Assembly: GCA_016871445.1 (NCBI GenBank) | Contig: VHDH01000017.1 | Coordinates: forward strand, 1 to 46,206 | From: Verrucomicrobiota bacterium | Lineage (GTDB): Bacteria; Verrucomicrobiota; Verrucomicrobiia; Limisphaerales; SXTU01 | DNA length: 46,206 nt | Direction of reading: 5' to 3' | In this document: positions 7,858 to 23,830 of the stretch, one piece after another | Position numbering within the stretch: the stretch's first letter is position 1 | Layout: the number at the start of each line of letters is the position of its first letter | Notes under the pieces: model-generated | The model's database searches: none | The model's input: only the letters and a program-made list of their open reading frames with translations | Told to the model about the DNA's origin: nothing | Translations under genes and position numbers: made by a program

Positions 7858-8313
7858 ATGAAGAACGAAGTGGTGCCCGTGCAGATCCGGGGCCTGCTAC
7901 CCGCCAACAGCGGCTGCGCCATCTTTGTCGGCAACGAGGAAAAGGTCTTCGTCATCCAGGTCGAGCACAACCTCGGCGCGGTCATCCAGATGTTCCTGCG
8001 CGACCAGCCCAAGGAACGCCCGCTGACGCACGACCTCATGGTTCACGTCTTGAGGGGCTTTGGCATCACTGTGGAGCGCGTCGTCATCACTGAATTGCGC
8101 AACTCCACTTACTTTGCCCGCCTCATCCTTAAACAGGATAACGAGCTGGGCAAAAAAATCGTCGAGATAGATGCCCGCCCCAGCGACTGCCTCGCCCTGG
8201 CTGCTGCGCACAAGCGCCCTGTCTACGTTACCAAGGACCTCTTCGAGCAGGTGGAAGATATGACTGAGTATCTCGACAAGCTCACCGAGAGCAGCGGTGA
8301 GGCAGAGGCTTGA
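7858..8313 (+). CDS. Bifunctional nuclease family protein (DUF151)
   Basis: 151 residues, the usual size for the DUF151/BFN family. Recognisable family features are the hydrophobic strand-rich N-terminus, IQVEHNLGAVIQMFL, the PLTHDLMVHVLRGFG segment, and IDARPSDCLALAAAHKRPVYV, which is the family signature (D-A-R-P-S-D-A/C-hydrophobic-x-L-A-x-R/K-x-x-x-P). Members cut RNA and DNA in vitro in plants; in bacteria the function is inferred. A CAGT-rich repeat and then holA follow in the same direction, so cotranscription is possible. Confidence 0.85.
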   Translation: MKNEVVPVQIRGLLPANSGCAIFVGNEEKVFVIQVEHNLGAVIQMFLRDQPKERPLTHDLMVHVLRGFGITVERVVITELRNSTYFARLILKQDNELGKKIVEIDARPSDCLALAAAHKRPVYVTKDLFEQVEDMTEYLDKLTESSGEAEA

Positions 8314-8327
8314 TTCGAACCCAAGTT

Positions 8328-8400
8328 TACAGTGTTCAGTGTTCAGTAATGAGTCTTCAACCATGGCCGCCCTCCGGGAAAATTGAACCCTGTCACTGAA
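8328..8400. repeat. CAGT-type repeat element, intergenic copy
   Basis: The gap between the nuclease gene and holA is almost filled by an element that begins CAGTGTTCAGTGTTCAGTAA, has GGCCGCCCTCCGGG in the middle and ends CACTGAAAACTTTCC. Read in the other direction, the insert at 21254-21343 inside PSD1-B has the same order of words (GTGTTCAGTAGTCAGCCTTC, a GGCCG-rich middle, CACTGAAAACCGG). The copy at 19541-19608 shares GTGTTCAGTGTTCAGT and the CACTGAA end. The ends are imperfect inverted repeats. Confidence 0.65.
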
Positions 8401-8414
8401 AACTTTCCTCCTCG

Positions 8415-9557
8415 ATGCCCCCCGCTCCCGCGCCGCCGCCTGCCCCCGTCGCCCTCATCTGCGGCGATGAAGACTTCGCGGTGAAGCAGCGCGCGCGGCA
8501 GCTCCATGACAAATGGTGCGGCGAAGTCGGCGGCATGGATCACGAGACGATTGACGCCGCCGTGGGCAACAGCGGGGAGGCGCTCAAGGCCCTCAGTAAG
8601 CTCCGCGAGGCGCTCCAGACACTCCCCTTTTTTGGCGGTGGCAAGATCGTCTGGTTCAAGGACTGCAACTTCCTCGACGATGACCGCACCGCGAAGGCGA
8701 AGGACGTTGCCACTGGCCTCGCCGAACTCGCCGCCGAACTGAAAGCCTTCCGCTGGGATGGAGTGCGCCTGCTCGTTAGCGCCGGTAAAGTGGACAAGCG
8801 CAAGACGCTCTACAAAACCTTGGAGAAGCTGGGTAACATTGAACACTTTGCCGCCCTCTCGCTCGACGACCGGAATTGGGCCGACCAGGCCGAGGACCTC
8901 GCCTACAAGAAGCTCAAGGCGCTCAAGAAGGAGATTTCCTCCGAAGCCCTCGCCCAGCTCGTCGCCAACGTCGGCCCGCACGCGGCGCAGCTCCACAGCG
9001 AGGTCGAGAAGCTGGCCGCTTACGTAGGTGCGCGTGCAGACATCGAGCTAACCGACGTAAACGCCATTGTCACGCGCAACAAGCAGGCCCGTGCTTTCGC
9101 TCTGGCCGACGCGCTGGGCGACCGCGACCTGCCCAAGCTACTCCGCACACTCGATGAAGAACTTTGGGAAGTCCGCGTCGGGGTAGACCGGAAGTCCGAG
9201 ATCGGCCTGCTCTACGGCCTCATCACCAAGGTGCGCGTGATGATTTTCCTGCAGGAGATGCTTAAGGCCGGCTGGCTCAAGGCCGATGGAGATTACAACC
9301 GCTTCAAGTCCCAGCTCGAACGCGTCCCCGCCGACGCGCTGCCCGAGGACAAGCGCATCAACCCGCTGGCGATGAACCCCTACGTGCTCTTCCGCGCGCT
9401 GCCGCAGGCAAAGCGCTACACGCCCGCCGAACTCATCCAGGCGATGGATCTCCTGCTCCAATGCAACATGAAGCTCGTGAGCAGCCAGCTCGACGAATCT
9501 CTCGTGCTACAGCAGACGCTCACGCAAATCGTCCGCCGCGGAGAGGCGGCTAAGTGA
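8415..9557 (+). CDS. holA: DNA polymerase III subunit delta
   Basis: 380 residues. HolA is the clamp-loader subunit that opens the beta sliding clamp; with gamma/tau and delta' it forms the AAA+ clamp-loader ring. After a Pro-Ala N-terminus, ALICGDEDFAVKQRAR matches the HolA start (hydrophobic-x-G-x-D/E). Further family traits are VWFKDCNFL, the region after KRKTLYK, ALAQLVANVGPHAAQLHSEVEKLAAY, and the C-terminal helical collar domain (FALADALGDRDLPKLLRTLDEEL; LLLQCNMKLVSSQLDESLVLQQTL). The Walker motifs are lost, as normal for delta. ATG 8415 follows the repeat element at 8328-8400. Confidence 0.9.
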   Translation: MPPAPAPPPAPVALICGDEDFAVKQRARQLHDKWCGEVGGMDHETIDAAVGNSGEALKALSKLREALQTLPFFGGGKIVWFKDCNFLDDDRTAKAKDVATGLAELAAELKAFRWDGVRLLVSAGKVDKRKTLYKTLEKLGNIEHFAALSLDDRNWADQAEDLAYKKLKALKKEISSEALAQLVANVGPHAAQLHSEVEKLAAYVGARADIELTDVNAIVTRNKQARAFALADALGDRDLPKLLRTLDEELWEVRVGVDRKSEIGLLYGLITKVRVMIFLQEMLKAGWLKADGDYNRFKSQLERVPADALPEDKRINPLAMNPYVLFRALPQAKRYTPAELIQAMDLLLQCNMKLVSSQLDESLVLQQTLTQIVRRGEAAK

Positions 9558-16828: not shown

Positions 16829-19800
16829 TCACGGCGTCATCGTTTCGTTTAGATTCAAAATGACGTTGGCGACCGCAGTCCACGCGGCGAGCTCGGCCGG
16901 ATTGGCGCCGTCGGGGTTTTTGAAGTCGCCGACTTTCAGGAGCGACTCGGCGGCAGGTTTTTCCTCGGTGAAGTGGGCGCGTTGCTTGGCCAAAGTTTTC
17001 TCCAGCACGGCGCGCTCGGTCGCGGACGGCGGGCGAGCAAGGGCAAGCCGCCACGCGTAGTTCAGTTTTGCTGCGTCATCAATTCCACCTTCCTTCAGCA
17101 CGCGGGCAGCAAAGGCGCGGGCAGCTTCGACGTAAACCGGGTCGTTCATCAGCACGAGCGACTGCAGCGGCGTGCTGGTGCGGGGACGTCCGGCAGCGCA
17201 AACCTCGCGGTTCGGCGCGTCAAAGGTGAGCAGACTCGGATACGGCGTGCTGCGGCGGTGATAAATGTAAAGCGCGCGCCGGTATTGGCTCGCATCGCGC
17301 TGCTGCTTCCAGCCGCTGCCGCCCATTTCGTTGATTTCCCAAACACCCGGCGGCTGATACGGATAAACTGGCTTGCCGCCGAGCTGCGGGTTGAGCAGGC
17401 CGGCGATGGCGAGCGCGTTGTCGCGGACGAACTCGGCATCCAGCCGCGCGCGCGGGCCACGAGCGAGCAGGCGATTTTCGGTGTCCTGCGCCAACAACGC
17501 GGGCGTAACAGCGGCGCTCTGCCGGAAAGCGTGGCTCATCACTATCTGCTTGATAGCGCGCTTCACATCCCAGTCGCGCGCGAAGTCGGCCGCGAGCCAG
17601 TTGAGCAGTTCGGGATGGCTCGGCCATTCGCCCTGCGAGCCGAAGTCGTTCACCGTCTTCACCAGCCCGGTGCCAAAGACCATCGCCCAGAAGCGGTTCA
17701 CCGCCACGCGCGCGGTGAGCGGATGTTGCGGCGAAGCGAGCCACTGCGCGAGATCGAGGCGGGTGAGGCGGTTGGTCGAGGTCGTCGCCGGCTTGGGCAG
17801 GAAAGCGGGAAAAGCGGCCTCGACCTTCTCGCCGTTCTTGTCGTAAGCCCCGCGCACCTTGATGAACGTGTCGCGCGGCTTCTCCATCTCGGCCATGACC
17901 ATGACCGTGGGAATGAGCTTGTCGAAGTCAGTCTTCGCCTTGCGCGCGTCCTCGGCGGATTTCTTTGCGGCGAGGTAATCGGTGGCCTGCGTCTCGCGAT
18001 AAAATTTCCGCAGCTTGTCAGCCTGTTCCTTCGTGCGCTTGGCCGGCTCGATGGCCGCGAGGGCGAAGGTTGGCCCGCCCGCGAGCGTGGCGACTTCCTT
18101 CTCGGTGAGCGCGCGCGGGAAAACATACAACTCGTCCACGCGGCCGGTGAAGGGCGAGCCGCCGCCGCCGCGTCGGCCGATGGCAAAGGGTGCGGTGGTC
18201 TTGATGGTGCCGGGGAGTTTGTCCTTGAGCACCTTGCTCGCGACGGGTTGGCCGTTGACAAAGAGTTTCACGCCGGCGGCTTTGCCCGAGCCGTCGTAGG
18301 TGAACGCGAGATGCTGGAACGTGTCGAAGGGCAAATCCTTCTCCGTCTGCACATGAATGGCCTCGTCCGGCCACTTGTGGATGAGGTGAACGCTGGCCTT
18401 CCCAGCCGCGAACTCGATGTCCCAGCCGCGAAAGTTCGGCCCGTTCTCCATCTTGCCCAGCGGCGCGCCGGACGGGGTGTTCTTCACGCGAACCCACAAC
18501 CCAACACTGAATTTATCTTCTTTGTCAAAGTCGTAGCGCTCGCCGAGGTCGGCGTGGCCCTTGGCGGTGAGCAGCAAGCCGTTGCCCTCCACGCCTTCCG
18601 CGAAACCAGTCTCCCCTTTCAATTCAGCTACAATCTCTTTGCCGTCGTGCGTGACGCCGTGCGCGTTGGTGTTCAGCGGAAAGTGGTCGAACGGGCCGGG
18701 GACGGCACGGGCAGTCGGGTCGCTAACGAGCTTCGCTTCCCAAGTTTTTTGCGCGGCGTCGAGCTGGCCTTCGAGTTCCTTCACGCGCTGGTCGGTGGAG
18801 GTGACTTGGGTGGACAACTTCACCAACTCCTTCTCCTGCTCCGCCGACGGCACGGCGAGGCGCGGTTCGGGGTTGAGAGTGCGGGTGCCGTCCTTGCCCT
18901 TCTCCGGCACGTTGTGGAAAAAGGCGTATAGGCTGTAGAAGTCCCGCGTCGTGACCGGGTCGTATTTGTGGTCGTGGCATTGCGCGCAGGCGATGCTCAT
19001 GCCGAACCACGCGGTGCCGAGCGTGCTCACGCGGTCCACGAGGTAGATGTTGAGATATTCGGCATCGATAATGCCGCCTTCGTCGGAGGTCATCACGTTA
19101 CGCATGAAACCGCTGGCAACCTTCTGGTCCATGGTCGCGTTGGGCAGCAGGTCGCCGGCGAGTTGCTCGATGGTGAAGCGGTCAAAGGGCTTGTTGCGGT
19201 TGAAGGAATTCACCACCCAGTCGCGGTAAAGCCAGACTTCGCGGAGGGAGTCGTTGTGATAACCCGCCGTGTCCGAATGCCGCGCAAGGTCCAGCCACGG
19301 CACCGCGACGCGTTCGCCGAAGTGCGGGGAGGCGAGCAGGCGGTCCACGGCACTGGCGATAGCCAATTGCCGATTACCGATGGAAGAACACTCGCGGACG
19401 AAGGCATCCACTTCAGCCGGCGTGGGCGGAAGGCCAGTGAGGGCGAGCGAAAGCCGGCGGAGCAGGACTTCAGGCTCTGCCTCGGGGGCGAAGGTGAGCT
19501 TCTCCCGCTCCAACCGCGCGGCAAGGAAGTGATCAATGGTATTCAGTGAACCCGTTTTAAGCAGGTCTATGGGTGCCTTCGTTCCCGGCGACTGAACACT
19601 GAACACGGACTTGCTGATGGTTTCCTTCTTTGGCACTGCCGGAGCCACCGTCGGCTCAAACGCCCAATGCCCCTGATACATCGCGCCCTCAGCAACCCAG
19701 CGACGGAACAGCTCGCGCTGCGCGGGTGTAATGGCCTTATGCGAGTTGGGCGGCGGCATGAGGTCGTCGGCGTCCTTGGTGAACAAGCGCGCGATGATTT

Positions 19801-20077
19801 CGGACTTCTCTGGCTTACCGGGGACGATGGCGGGTTTCCCAGAAGTGCCGGCCCTGAGTGCCTCTTCGCGCACGTCGAGACGGAGCTTGCCCTTGCGCGT
19901 CTTCTCGTCAAAGCCGTGGCACTTGAAGCAGGTGTCGGACATCAGCGGGCGGATGTCGCGGTTGAAGTCCACGGGCGCGGGCTTCGGCGCGCCAAACAAC
20001 GCGGCGCGCACGGGCGCAGCGAGGGAAAACAAGATAAGCACTGCTGAGAGAATCGGCTTCACAAACATAGGCCCCAT
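16829..20077 (-). CDS. PSD1 protein A: planctomycete cytochrome c + DUF1549 + LamG-like + DUF1553
   Basis: About 1082 residues. A signal peptide (PILSAVLILFSLAAPVRA) is followed by the planctomycete-type cytochrome c region with DTCFKCHGFDEKT (CxxCH at about 50-54) and LMPPPNSHKAITPAQ. Next come DUF1549 (GLPPTPAEVDAFV...WLDLARHSDT...CAQCHDHKYDP at about 364), a LamG/ConA-like sandwich at about 465-655 (ENGPNFRGWDIEF, FVNGQPV, GRVDELYVFPRAL), and DUF1553 from about 750 (HPLTARVAVNRFWAMVFG, TPLQSLVLMNDPV). Probably a secreted heme protein linked to polysaccharide use; the reaction is unknown. Two short repeat-derived segments are inserted in frame. ATG 20077 was chosen; ATG 20068 is also possible. 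It is the last gene of the set starting at 26989. Confidence 0.88.
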   Translation of the reverse strand: MGPMFVKPILSAVLILFSLAAPVRAALFGAPKPAPVDFNRDIRPLMSDTCFKCHGFDEKTRKGKLRLDVREEALRAGTSGKPAIVPGKPEKSEIIARLFTKDADDLMPPPNSHKAITPAQRELFRRWVAEGAMYQGHWAFEPTVAPAVPKKETISKSVFSVQSPGTKAPIDLLKTGSLNTIDHFLAARLEREKLTFAPEAEPEVLLRRLSLALTGLPPTPAEVDAFVRECSSIGNRQLAIASAVDRLLASPHFGERVAVPWLDLARHSDTAGYHNDSLREVWLYRDWVVNSFNRNKPFDRFTIEQLAGDLLPNATMDQKVASGFMRNVMTSDEGGIIDAEYLNIYLVDRVSTLGTAWFGMSIACAQCHDHKYDPVTTRDFYSLYAFFHNVPEKGKDGTRTLNPEPRLAVPSAEQEKELVKLSTQVTSTDQRVKELEGQLDAAQKTWEAKLVSDPTARAVPGPFDHFPLNTNAHGVTHDGKEIVAELKGETGFAEGVEGNGLLLTAKGHADLGERYDFDKEDKFSVGLWVRVKNTPSGAPLGKMENGPNFRGWDIEFAAGKASVHLIHKWPDEAIHVQTEKDLPFDTFQHLAFTYDGSGKAAGVKLFVNGQPVASKVLKDKLPGTIKTTAPFAIGRRGGGGSPFTGRVDELYVFPRALTEKEVATLAGGPTFALAAIEPAKRTKEQADKLRKFYRETQATDYLAAKKSAEDARKAKTDFDKLIPTVMVMAEMEKPRDTFIKVRGAYDKNGEKVEAAFPAFLPKPATTSTNRLTRLDLAQWLASPQHPLTARVAVNRFWAMVFGTGLVKTVNDFGSQGEWPSHPELLNWLAADFARDWDVKRAIKQIVMSHAFRQSAAVTPALLAQDTENRLLARGPRARLDAEFVRDNALAIAGLLNPQLGGKPVYPYQPPGVWEINEMGGSGWKQQRDASQYRRALYIYHRRSTPYPSLLTFDAPNREVCAAGRPRTSTPLQSLVLMNDPVYVEAARAFAARVLKEGGIDDAAKLNYAWRLALARPPSATERAVLEKTLAKQRAHFTEEKPAAESLLKVGDFKNPDGANPAELAAWTAVANVILNLNETMTP
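19357..19382. repeat. CGATTACCGATGG-type short repeat inside PSD1-A
   Basis: GCCAATTGCCGATTACCGATGG reads as repetitive intergenic-style text and encodes the odd segment SSIGNRQLAIAS between VDAFVREC and AVDRLLASPHFGE. Relatives usually have a short, unrelated acidic linker there. The frame is kept. Similar wording (GCGATTGGCGATTAGC) occurs in the copper ATPase gene. Confidence 0.45.
19541..19608. repeat. CAGT-type repeat element, in-frame copy in PSD1-A
   Basis: On the minus strand it starts CCGTGTTCAGTGTTCAGTCG and ends GGGTTCACTGAATACC. It matches the intergenic copy at 8328-8400 at its start and end. It codes for SVFSVQSPGTKAP and neighbours, a stretch that separates the cytochrome region from the NTIDHFLAARLERE helix; relatives normally have only a few residues there. 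Confidence 0.6.
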
Positions 20078-20140
20078 TTTGACCCGGCGCGGGAGGAGGT
20101 CATTCACCGCAGGAACGACTAGTGAGGCGACTGCAACAGC

Positions 20141-23100
20141 TTAATCCACGAATAGAAACTCGTTCGCCGAGAGTAACACTTGTGCGAGCTGTTCCCAGGG
20201 CTTCAGCGGCGGTTGCGCGGGCACGTCCACGCCACGGAAATCCTTCTTCGCGTCCCATTCCTTCACGGGCACCGGCGCAGCCCCGACCACGGCGGCGGCG
20301 GTGTTCAACTCGGTGATGACGGGCGCCCACTTGAACTCGTCGCTATTCAGGTTCGCGCGAAAATCCACGATGAAGTCCAACGTGTCGCCGGCCTGCACGG
20401 CGGTAGAGGGCACGCGCAGGTCCTCTGCTGCGTTGTGCACGGTCACGGTGCGGAGTTGACCTAACCGGCTGTGCGTGATGAACGCCCGCACGCCATCGCC
20501 CGCGCTGGTCTCGTGCGCGATGCGACCCGCGATGTTCACCACGCAGTCGCGCGGCGCAATCCATCGGCGCACGACCGCATGCTGGAGGTCGTTGCCCGCG
20601 TGACCGCCGTCGGCGGTGAGTTGCGCCCAGCCGAGCTTCGCGTCAGGCCAGTTGGGGCCGCCTTGCCAAGCCTTGCCGGTGAAGTGCGGCAATGCCGTGA
20701 AGTTCTTCAACTTGCGGTTCGGCTCATCGAATTCGCCGTATCCGTAACGCCACTGATTTTCTGGCGGTGGCTCAGGTGTTTGCGGCTGGTTCGCCTCGGC
20801 ATCCGCGATAAAGCGCACGGCGGCAGCGGCCTGTGCGGACGTCGGCTCACGTTGGAAAAGCGCACGGTGGAGAAAGCGGACTTTTTCCTCGGGCGAACTC
20901 AGCTTGGAAAAATCGGCGCGTGCGACGAGCGCCTTCGCGCGCGCGGCGACGAACGGGTGATTGAGGAAAAACAACGCCTGCTGCGAAACGGTCGTCTCGT
21001 GTCGCTGCGGAATGTGCAGGTCGGGATTGGCGAAATCAAAGACGCGGAAGAGCGGCGGCAAATACTGGCGGTCAACGAGACCGTAGAGACTGCGACGCTT
21101 GCTGGTGAAAACGTCGGCGGGCCGGCCGCCGGGCGTGAGGTCGAGCTCGCCGCTGGCCGCGAGCAACGAGTCGCGCAGTTCCTCGAAGTCGAGCCGCTGG
21201 CGGTTCGCGCGCCAGAGCAGGCGATTGTCCGGGTCGAGCGCGGTGGCGCGTTTCCAGTATTCAGGATTCAGTTTCCGGTTTTCAGTGGGCCGCCCGCCGC
21301 CCTCGGCCTGCACCGAAGGCTGACTACTGAACACTGAAAACTCACCAGCCTGCTGATACGCCGCGCTGGTGAGCAAAAGTCGGTGTACCGCCTTTAAACT
21401 CCAGCCGTCCGCCACGAAACGCCGCGCGAGCCAGTCCAGCAACTCGGGATGGCTCGGCGGCTCCGCGCGCAGACCAAAATCACTTGGCGTCTTGACAAGG
21501 CCTGCCCCGAAGTGGTGGAGCCAAACCCGATTCACCATCACGCGAGCGGTGAGCGGGTTTTCCGCATTAGCGATGGCGCGGGCGAGTTCCAGCCGGCCGC
21601 TGCCATGCGCAAACGGCTGCCGCTGCGGGCCGGCAACGACTTCCAAGAACTGCCGCGGGACTTCGACCCCTTTCTGCTTCGGGTCGCCGCGCAGGAAGAC
21701 CCGCGGATTTCCCTGCGGCGCACGGTCCGTGACGATGAGCGCGTGCGCCGGGGCGCCGGGCGCGCGGATGAGGTGGCGGTCTACTTCGCCCTGCAACTTC
21801 CACAGCTCCTCGGTCGCCTTCGTGGTGAAGAGCTGCTCGGTGTTCACGATGCCATCAGGTGGGATGACGGCGGGCGAGTCGGCAGCGTAAAGCACTTGGC
21901 GAAGCGCCTCGGCTTGCGGGTCAGGCAACGAGGTGGGCGCGGGGGAATTGTTCGTTTTCGCGGCGTTGAGCGCGGCCTGCCACTGCTGTTCGATGGTGGA
22001 AAAAACTTTGCCGTAACGCTCGGCGACTTCGCGTGGAGATTTCGGAGGCTCGGTGAAAGCGGCGGCGAGCAACGCATTCGGGTTCGCCCCTGCGTTTGGT
22101 GAACGAACGCCGGCTCCCAATTCAGATGGAGCCTCTTCACGTCGGCTGCTACCGACGTGCTGGTGCCACAGCGCCCACACTGGGTCGCCGCGCTTCCGGG
22201 CCTGTTCAAGATACGCCTGCCAGCGGCGGACGGTGGCGGGGATGAGGTCGTTGTCCGTGAGGATTTGGTCGAAGCCTTCCTCGGGATACTTGTGCAGCTC
22301 GAACTGGGCAGCGAGATAGTCCGTCACTCGGGCGCGGACGCGCGCAGCGGCTTCGGCACGGCGCGTGGCCATCGTCGAGTTCAGCTTGTCGAGGCGAGTG
22401 CGGTATTCCTTGTCAAAGGCAGCGAGCGCATCGGACTGCGCTGGGAATTCGATTTGAACCAACTCATCCGCCGTGCTCTGGAACACGCCGTAAAGCGAGT
22501 AGTAATCTGCAGTTGGAATGGGGTCGTATTTGTGGTCGTGGCAGCGCGCGCACTGGACGGTCAACCCCATCGTGCCGCGCGTCACCACGTCAATGCGGTC
22601 ATCAAGGATGTCGTGCGTCACCCCGATGAAGCGGCGGCCCGTCGTGAGGAAGCCGAGGGCGGCAAGGTCAGCAAGTTTCGAGTTTTGAGTTTCGGGTTTT
22701 GAGTTGGCAGCGGTGTCCGGCAGTGCTCCGCCAACTCGAAACGGCGATAGCTGGTCGCCGGCTATCTGAAGCATCAGGAACCGGTCGTAAGGCAAGTCGT
22801 TGTTCAGCGCGCGGACCACCCAGTCGCGGTAAGCGTGGGCGTGGACGAAGAAGCGTTCTTCGCGGGCATAAACGTAGCCCTTCGTGTCCGCGTATCGCGC
22901 GACATCGAGCCAGTGCCGCGCCCAGCGCTCACCGTAGAGCGGTGAGGCGAGCAGGCGCTCCACGAGTGCGGCGATGGCTCTTTGCTCACTTTCCCGCTTT
23001 CTCACTTTCTCACTATCTCGGATGGCAGGCGGGAAAGTGGGGGAGTGAGAAAGTGAGAATTCCCTTACGAACGCCTCGACCTCCTCCGCGCTCGGCGGCA

Positions 23101-23773
23101 GGCCGGTGAGGTCGTAAGTCATCCGGCGGATGAGCGTGCGCGGATCGGCCGGCGGCGAGGGCTTCAGGCCGTTGGCCTCCAGTTTCGCGAGGATGAAGTG
23201 GTCCACCGGCGACTGCGGCCAAGCCTTGTCCTTCACCTTGGGCAGCGGCTGGTCCTTCGGCGCAACGAACGCCCAGTGCGGCTTCGAACTTTGAACTTCA
23301 GATTTTGCACTTTTAACTTCGCCCGCGCGCGGGTCCGGTGCGCCGCTGCGAATCCACACCTCGAAGTCGGCGAGTTGCTGCGGAGAAAGTTTCTTCTTCG
23401 GGGGCATCTGCAAGTCCGCGCTCGTGTGGCGGATGGCCGCCAGCAACCGGCTATTCTCCGGCTCGCCGGGCACAACGGCGGGTTCGCCCGAGTTGCCGCC
23501 GCGTCGCAAGCCGTCGCGGGTGTCCACGCGCAACCCGGCCTTGAGCGACTTGCTCGTTGCGCTGTGGCACTCGTAGCAATGCTGAGCGAGCACGGGGCGG
23601 ATGCGCCTCTCGAAGAAATCAAACTCAGTCACGGAAGCTCCCAAGCCCAAGCTCCAGAACCCCAAGAAGCACCAAGCTCCGAATACCAATTGCCAGGCAC
23701 CACGTGCGCTTTGGAGCTGGGTCATTGGAGCTTCTTTGGGATTTGGCGCTTGGCGCTTGGAACTTCGGTTCAT
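20141..23773 (-). CDS. PSD1 protein B: planctomycete cytochrome c + DUF1549 + DUF1553 with multiple in-frame repeat inserts
   Basis: About 1210 residues. CxxCH is at CYECHSATSKSLKAG, with QMPPKKKLSPQQLADFEVWIRSGAPDP completing the cytochrome domain. DUF1549 includes LTGLPPSAEEVEAFV, HWLDVARYADTKGYVYARE and CARCHDHKYDP; DUF1553 includes NPLTARVMVNRVWLHHFGAGLV and VSQQALFFLNHPFV. A C-terminal beta-sandwich of about 200 residues follows. Counted from GTG 23782, unusual segments lie at residues 156-167, 243-266, 346-371, 544-567 and 812-841, each encoded by a low-complexity or palindromic repeat and each placed in a loop. The signal-peptide region comes from another repeat. Start is uncertain: GTG 23782, ATG 23773 or ATG 23725. 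It lies 50 bases after the propeller gene and 63 before PSD1-A, so probably one operon. Confidence 0.85.
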   Translation of the reverse strand: MNRSSKRQAPNPKEAPMTQLQSARGAWQLVFGAWCFLGFWSLGLGASVTEFDFFERRIRPVLAQHCYECHSATSKSLKAGLRVDTRDGLRRGGNSGEPAVVPGEPENSRLLAAIRHTSADLQMPPKKKLSPQQLADFEVWIRSGAPDPRAGEVKSAKSEVQSSKPHWAFVAPKDQPLPKVKDKAWPQSPVDHFILAKLEANGLKPSPPADPRTLIRRMTYDLTGLPPSAEEVEAFVREFSLSHSPTFPPAIRDSEKVRKRESEQRAIAALVERLLASPLYGERWARHWLDVARYADTKGYVYAREERFFVHAHAYRDWVVRALNNDLPYDRFLMLQIAGDQLSPFRVGGALPDTAANSKPETQNSKLADLAALGFLTTGRRFIGVTHDILDDRIDVVTRGTMGLTVQCARCHDHKYDPIPTADYYSLYGVFQSTADELVQIEFPAQSDALAAFDKEYRTRLDKLNSTMATRRAEAAARVRARVTDYLAAQFELHKYPEEGFDQILTDNDLIPATVRRWQAYLEQARKRGDPVWALWHQHVGSSRREEAPSELGAGVRSPNAGANPNALLAAAFTEPPKSPREVAERYGKVFSTIEQQWQAALNAAKTNNSPAPTSLPDPQAEALRQVLYAADSPAVIPPDGIVNTEQLFTTKATEELWKLQGEVDRHLIRAPGAPAHALIVTDRAPQGNPRVFLRGDPKQKGVEVPRQFLEVVAGPQRQPFAHGSGRLELARAIANAENPLTARVMVNRVWLHHFGAGLVKTPSDFGLRAEPPSHPELLDWLARRFVADGWSLKAVHRLLLTSAAYQQAGEFSVFSSQPSVQAEGGGRPTENRKLNPEYWKRATALDPDNRLLWRANRQRLDFEELRDSLLAASGELDLTPGGRPADVFTSKRRSLYGLVDRQYLPPLFRVFDFANPDLHIPQRHETTVSQQALFFLNHPFVAARAKALVARADFSKLSSPEEKVRFLHRALFQREPTSAQAAAAVRFIADAEANQPQTPEPPPENQWRYGYGEFDEPNRKLKNFTALPHFTGKAWQGGPNWPDAKLGWAQLTADGGHAGNDLQHAVVRRWIAPRDCVVNIAGRIAHETSAGDGVRAFITHSRLGQLRTVTVHNAAEDLRVPSTAVQAGDTLDFIVDFRANLNSDEFKWAPVITELNTAAAVVGAAPVPVKEWDAKKDFRGVDVPAQPPLKPWEQLAQVLLSANEFLFVD
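21254..21343. repeat. CAGT-type repeat element, in-frame copy in PSD1-B
   Basis: On the minus strand it reads GAGTTTTCAGTGTTCAGTAG, then a GGCCGAGGGCGGCGGG middle, then CCACTGAAAACCGGAAACTG. The arms TTTTCAGTGTTCAGT and ACTGAAAACCGGAAACTGAA are imperfectly complementary. It encodes about 30 residues (EFSVFSSQPSVQAEGGGRPT and on) between LTSAAYQQ and ATALDPDNRLLWR. Those two blocks are separated by about 10-15 residues in relatives. Confidence 0.65.
22079..22156. repeat. GTCGGCTGCTACCGAC-type palindromic repeat inside PSD1-B
   Basis: The element contains the perfect hairpin GTCGG-ctgcta-CCGAC (22141-22156), GGCTCCC...ATGGAGCC, and GTTCG...CGAAC arms (22082-22106). Read on the minus strand in the gene's frame it gives GSSRREEAPSELGAGVRSPN. 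The segment lies in the spacer region between DUF1549 and DUF1553, where length varies among relatives. Confidence 0.6.
22674..22746. repeat. GAGTTTCGGGTTTTGAGTT-type palindromic repeat inside PSD1-B
   Basis: The left arm GTTTCGAGTTTTGAGTTTCG plus GGTTTTGAGTTGG (22675-22707) is matched by the right arm CCAACTCGAAACGGCG (22731-22746), with a GC-rich loop of about 23 bases. It encodes about 25 residues (SPFRVGGALPDTAANSKPET...) between LQIAGDQL and ADLAALGFLTTGRRF. Relatives go almost directly from the one to the other. Confidence 0.65.
22984..23061. repeat. CTCACTTTCTCACTTTC-type palindromic repeat inside PSD1-B
   Basis: CTCACTTTCCCGCTTTCTCA and more (22985-23013) pairs with GGGAAAGTGGGGGAGTGAGA and more (23030-23058), nearly complementary over about 28 bases. 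The loop carries TATCTCGGATGGCAGG. The gene's frame reads SLSHSPTFPPAIRDSEKVRK and a few more residues between VEAFVREF and QRAIAALVERLLASPLYGER. The homologous linker in PSD1-A carries a different insert. Confidence 0.7.
23283..23320. repeat. AT-rich low-complexity insert in PSD1-B
   Basis: TTCGAACTTTGAACTTCAGA followed by TTTTGCACTTTTAACTTC is strikingly AT-rich within a GC-rich gene and is made of repeated (G/T)AACTT words. It encodes VKSAKSEVQSSK between the cytochrome domain (GAPDPRAGE) and PHWAFVAPK. Confidence 0.55.
23633..23768. repeat. 136-bp imperfect palindromic element covering the 5' end of PSD1-B
   Basis: The left arm (23635-23702) contains AGAACCCCAAGAAGCACCAA and GCTCCGAATACCAATTGCC. 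The right arm (23703-23765) contains TTGGAGCTTCTTTGGGATTT and GGCGCTTGGCGCTTGG. The reverse complement of the left arm follows the right arm for most of its length, word by word (GGAGCTT, CTTCTT, GGG, TTTGG, GCTTGG). The element overlaps the start codon candidates and encodes the hydrophobic N-terminus AWQLVFGAWCFLGFWSLGLG. Confidence 0.7.
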
Positions 23774-23830
23774 CGCGGGCACACGGTCTAAGACGCAGCG
23801 CAGGCTACCGAATTCGCCGCGCGGAGCTGC

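Follow-up and report, generated by a model that had tools for sequence, protein, structure and literature searches.

The stretch of DNA analyzed here (the window) covers 46,206 nucleotides of a Verrucomicrobiota contig and carries three related short elements, one between genes and two within them. The intergenic element is a palindrome of TTCAGTN heptads at 8324-8405, not assigned to a strand, between a nuclease gene (7858-8313) and holA (8415-9557). The other two are in frame on the minus strand in PSD1 genes. PSD1-A (16829-20107, minus strand; PSCyt1, PSCyt2, Laminin_G_3 and PSD1 domains) holds a degenerate copy at 19541-19608, recognized by sequence and reading frame. PSD1-B (20141-23782, minus strand; PSCyt1, PSCyt2 and PSD1 domains), whose true start is probably downstream of 23782, holds a palindrome at 21254-21343, recognized by sequence, frame and fold. 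Neither insert contains a stop codon. The original prediction, made from the window alone, held that a shared start and a CACTGAA end mark these sites as copies of one repeat, and that the shared word is translated as S-V-F-S in both PSD1 genes. The sequences it gave are present at all three sites (8328-8400, 19541-19608, and 21254-21343), and S-V-F-S occurs at residues 167-170 of PSD1-A (19609-19598) and 816-819 of PSD1-B (21337-21326). The CACTGAA words are also present, but the real ends of intact copies lie further out and read (N)ACTGAAnACT. When GTGTTCAGTGTTCAGT is sought in the window with up to three mismatches, seven matches are obtained, all within the three elements, against an expectation of 0.19.

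PSD1-B contains further arrays. A probable second-family element on the minus strand at 22674-22744 is built of GTTTCGA-type heptads and has a partial inverted arm (CCAACTCGAAAC); the same unit type forms the arms at three loci of the gene for the 23S rRNA intervening-sequence protein, IVP (L310, L334, and L408). An inverted repeat of 8-base units, TTCTCACTTTCTCACT and its complement, lies at 22999-23059 (minus strand) and resembles the arms of IVP loci L315, L357, and L369. Inverted CCAAGNN/CTTGGNN heptad arrays, without assigned strand, occupy 23631-23769, at or upstream of the start of PSD1-B. With these other arrays (GTTTCGA, GTGAGAAA, and CCAAGNN), four families are found in one gene region.

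The genome of the window (G000; 3.49 Mb in 236 contigs) contains 97 matches to TTCAGTRTTCAGT at one mismatch, in about 45 clusters, and none to the reversed control, a difference that rules out chance or low complexity. The original prediction would have been refuted had only the three window sites existed; instead, in-gene and intergenic copies form one family that is spread genome-wide and differs between species. Its further description of the family as mobile-looking is supported by sites filled in some species and empty in others and by copies at non-syntenic positions, although a transposition has not been directly observed. Copies have a uniform design: AGT, about four NTTCAGT units, a loop of ~15-35 nt, about four ACTGAAN units, and ACT. 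The arms are thus tandem heptads, palindromic around a variable loop, in short elements of ~65-95 bp. This architecture and the counts of other units in G000 rest on 530 kb selected around TTCAGT matches, where the dominant tandem period is 7 and the units GCATTCC, GGCAATC, and GTTTGGG also occur. Folding, which had been proposed as a check, separates intact copies from their shuffles (z -6 to -10). The window copies fold more weakly (z -2.5 for 8324-8405, -1.5 for the PSD1-A copy and -4.2 for the PSD1-B copy), and the PSD1-A copy is the most degenerate, with a single clear heptad left in one arm. Arm-to-arm covariation within TTCAGT copies is unsupported (permutation p 0.88).

Long ORFs contain 18 of 35 clusters. 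Many of the host genes encode PSD1/PSCyt proteins; others encode LeuRS, TrpE, a CusA-like pump and a DUF7133 protein. The copies inside genes are always in frame. Comparison with solved structures places the LeuRS element as an extra peptide in the region of the editing domain, and the TrpE and CusA-like pump copies at gaps or linkers. Every right-arm unit contains TGA, and coding copies dodge in-frame stops, for example by an extra base between units or by TGG for TGA. The coding copies examined have just one to three open frames out of six, and these include the frame of the gene itself. A PSD1 gene also holds a direct CAGT array with a single arm (L048:12036-12091, with orthologs L122-L129). 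Unlike the other sites, this array is equally long in all eight other species compared, and it may have become fixed in the protein. LeuRS is broken across two contigs, and their overlap falls in a second heptad element (L065:4178-4230 and L047:51-103); assembly breaks may be located at such elements.

Comparison of orthologous regions in ten species of the genus reveals that one position can hold an empty loop, the TTCAGTN family, or palindromes and arrays of other heptads. At the PSD1-B site, TTCAGTN is found in G000, G001, and G007, GGAATTC in G002, G006, G008, and G009, GGGTCGA in G004 and G005, and GTGAGNN in G010. The alleles at the PSD1-A site are TTCAGTN, GATTGCC, CCTTGGA, and ATTAGTG. 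The LeuRS site is a native empty loop in G003 and G010, carries TTCAGTN in G000, and carries GATTGCC in G004, G005, and G008, with a partial array in G002. Allele lengths at coding sites are always equal modulo 3, and those of the nuclease-holA spacer, which holds related or different heptad palindromes in other species, take all three modulo-3 values. The class comprises many heptad families that replace one another at fixed sites; on the best explanation, every family is defined by a unit of its own, of 7 or sometimes 8 bases.

TTCAGTN elements are present in all ten genomes of the genus. Elsewhere they are patchy: in a sample of 289 genomes from the whole phylum, 7 have the palindrome. Among the matches listed, the exact palindrome is found in records labeled as Planctomycetota, Chloroflexota, Bacteroidota, Acidobacteriota, Bacillota, Gammaproteobacteria, Omnitrophota, and Verrucomicrobiota. 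By our own estimate, which assumes uniform base composition, well under one exact palindrome would be expected by chance in 257 Gb.

The window copies lack an ORF for IVP. Long elements of ~420-680 bp carry an IVP/S23 gene (PF05635; sequence relatives 2gsc and 2rld) between their arms. In one genome of the same order (G027), for example, two TTCAGT arms ~500 bp apart enclose a PF05635 gene. Such genes are present in 44 of 56 genomes of the order and in none of 14 control genomes. An inverted repeat scoring at least 14 surrounds the IVP gene at 74 of 91 loci. Among random positions the figure is 3 of 400, and among other genes of about that size it is 2 of 91. With the class added, the count is 118 of 149 IVP loci. 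The arms are mostly tandem 7-mers, with some 8-mers, and vary from locus to locus. CAGT-armed IVP elements occur in the genus of the window (L314 in G002 and L335 in G003, with TTCAGTN arms) and elsewhere (L266 in G027, also with TTCAGTN arms, L311, L337, and L352). The IVP gene of locus L304, in G023, sits among very long arrays, with ~170-240 bp of the heptads GGTCGGA and CTCCGTC. None of the IVP loci examined contains a conserved 23S word.

Arms and IVP diverge together, including at unrelated sites: across bins of rising IVP identity, arm similarity is 0.11, 0.12, 0.15, 0.20, 0.42, and 0.56. For non-syntenic pairs with at least 60% IVP identity it is 0.452, compared with 0.137 after permutation (maximum of 2000 permutations, 0.204). 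It was predicted in advance that CAGT arms would accompany homologs of the L266 IVP, and GTTGCA arms those of the L294 IVP. This came true for only some of the closest homologs and no longer applied below ~55% identity. L377 and L379 have CAGT arms, L378 the related GCTCAGT and L406 GTTGCAG; the failures were L376, in which no strong repeat was found, and L407, which has other arms.

IVP elements are located in operon spacers, with the next ATG a median of 10 nt past the arm. Of 113 elements, 100 have both neighboring genes pointing the same way as the IVP gene and two have both pointing the opposite way; three consecutive genes are co-directional in 45% of cases in the G000 regions. From this bias we conclude that the element either needs the sense transcript or works by way of it. 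One such site (L300) holds an IVP element in five species, with two arm types, and an ordinary short spacer in G000, G001, G004, and G006. No clear target duplication, as would mark a MITE with terminal inverted repeats, is visible between these filled and empty alleles, the species being ~80-95% identical and the spacer itself changed. In the filled alleles, the ATG of the downstream transporter gene is now CTG.

We think it probable that the three window sites hold short, non-autonomous forms, without an ORF, of hairpin elements resembling the intervening sequences (IVSs) of 23S rRNA, and that IVP moves its cognate hairpins. The mobilization is inferred. We observe the family and its architecture, its in-frame placement, presence and absence, the swapping of families, the linkage of IVP to arms, their co-divergence and the sense bias. 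The derivation of the loops of the short forms from IVP elements has not been shown. In outline, IVP would recognize the heptad hairpin, probably in RNA. Alone or with a host enzyme such as a reverse transcriptase, the partner of its relative Avd in diversity-generating retroelements (DGRs), it would then move cognate hairpins, including those without an ORF. An insertion within a gene would survive only if it kept the frame, brought no stop codon and fell in a tolerant loop, and the hairpin is inferred to be translated as a spacer peptide. We consider it likeliest that IVP recognizes its own hairpin in RNA and that the hairpin is then copied, given the likeness of IVP to Avd (see below), the nearly exclusive sense orientation, and arms that are each clade's own. 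The IVP-bearing long relatives suggest that 23S rRNA insertions are part of a much wider class of mobile DNA. The findings also show how housekeeping enzymes can acquire small hairpins in frame, and they may account for many annotations as 'four helix bundle protein'.

Several observations weigh against this explanation. G000 has two IVP genes, and the arms read for one of them are GGAGATN-type. Neither a TTCAGTN-armed IVP nor a close homolog of a CAGT-armed IVP was found in G000, so any mobilization must have happened in the past or must act in trans. In G001 there are 69 TTCAGT pairs and no IVP match, and TTCAGT copy number and the number of IVP genes correlate only weakly. The want of a visible target duplication at L300 also counts against it, and we know of no catalytic activity of IVP.

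The absence of an identified TTCAGTN-armed IVP from the genome also leaves room for another transposase, Y1/RAYT or IS, moving REP- or MITE-type palindromes, with IVP merely residing in similar hairpins. In copy number, palindromic form and dispersal, the copies are like REPINs and MITEs (PMC3733652, PMC10969869). This explanation is not excluded, but we regard it as unlikely, given the linkage of IVP to arms and its clade specificity, and the absence of GTAG and CGTC tags from the ends that the copies share. Host hairpins retained for function, as terminators or RNA stabilizers, would account for the strong folds and for IVP elements in operons close ahead of the next start codon. However, some alleles are empty, one family can take the place of another at a given position, and half the copies lie well inside coding sequence, which makes a regulatory origin very improbable.

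The arrays could also have arisen by local 7-nt replication slippage and template switching without any mobile element, like units being reached by convergence. Unit length 7 dominates, as it does among long simple repeats in many bacteria (Mrazek, 2007, as cited in PMC4679880), and unit numbers differ between species. The GGGTCGA unit at the PSD1-B site of G004 and G005, moreover, resembles the local host sequence GGGTCGAG. Against this stand the occurrence of one unit at ~45 loci of one genome, the inversion of the arms, and arms that flank IVP genes and follow the IVP clade at unrelated sites. Purely local slippage explains neither the dispersal nor the IVP link. We hold this origin to be quite unlikely, although slippage may be the source of changes in unit number.

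A wider reading is conceivable, which we offer only tentatively and think somewhat doubtful: rRNA IVSs, cyanobacterial heptad hairpins and in-frame coding palindromes would form one cross-phylum class of RNA-level mobile elements. IVP would recognize a clade-specific heptad hairpin in the sense transcript and copy it with or without the IVP ORF. The targets would be preferred sites in rRNA, spacers and coding loops, with families competing for the same sites. A link between TTCAGTN and IVP across phyla has not been shown, as an IVP of any kind was found at only 2 of 80 cross-phylum TTCAGT loci. A literature search found nothing that links non-rRNA IVP genes to heptad arms; its coverage was incomplete and prior description is not excluded.

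Among known systems, the 23S rRNA IVS of Coxiella, Leptospira, and Salmonella encodes the same protein family as the long forms (PMC4990558). The Coxiella IVS is of similar size (428-444 nt, vs. ~420-680 bp here), has a terminal stem of ~28 bp comparable to the terminal inverted repeats here, and carries tandem GACAGAT heptads ahead of the S23p ORF, which is deleted in one strain; its mobility is only conjectured (PMC4990558). Patchy distribution and recurrent sites are further points of likeness. A stem of terminal inverted repeats is present in the short forms and in the long forms (118 of 149), and the long forms have the four-helix S23/IVP ORF (PF05635). Insertion in 23S rRNA (helix 25 or 45) is not found, the window copies being in a spacer and in PSD1 genes, and the elements are therefore not rRNA IVSs. 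Unlike IVSs, the short forms lie within protein genes, where we infer that they are translated.

Short palindromes in frame in housekeeping genes and in spacers are also known as Rickettsia palindromic elements (Ogata, 2000, 2002, as cited in PMC10969869). Stop-free, in-frame palindromes in conserved genes are shared with those elements, but we do not claim membership. They are ~150 bp long and encode conserved peptides, whereas the elements here have heptad arms, unconserved peptides and an IVP-coding long form (PMC10969869). The TAACTGA direct repeats of Beggiatoaceae, Cyanobacteria, and Bacteroidetes have a related core (ACTGATA vs. ACTGAAN) and are likewise scattered across phyla without a known mechanism; they are mostly direct arrays just upstream of start codons, with no palindrome or IVP link reported (PMC4679880). 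No template/variable repeat pair, as in DGRs, is seen at the loci here. The DGR accessory protein Avd, however, resembles PF05635 in sequence and structure and acts in RNA-based retrohoming (PMC10053308).

Stems of tandem heptads, as here, are found in P6b of the Nostoc trnL intron (class I TDNGATT and class II NNTGAGT; PMC4476775) and in cyanobacterial STRRs. The exchange of a whole region between heptad classes at a fixed site and the changes in unit number described for P6b (PMC4476775) are both seen here. The present elements differ in phylum and units, in their many sites, in the IVP gene of the long forms and in their in-frame copies in protein genes. The origin, mobility and protein role of IVSs have been open for more than 25 years (PMC4990558), and the origin of the Nostoc heptad classes is likewise open (PMC4476775). 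The clade-specific match of IVP and arms at many non-rRNA loci makes both questions testable, with a predicted ligand for each IVP.
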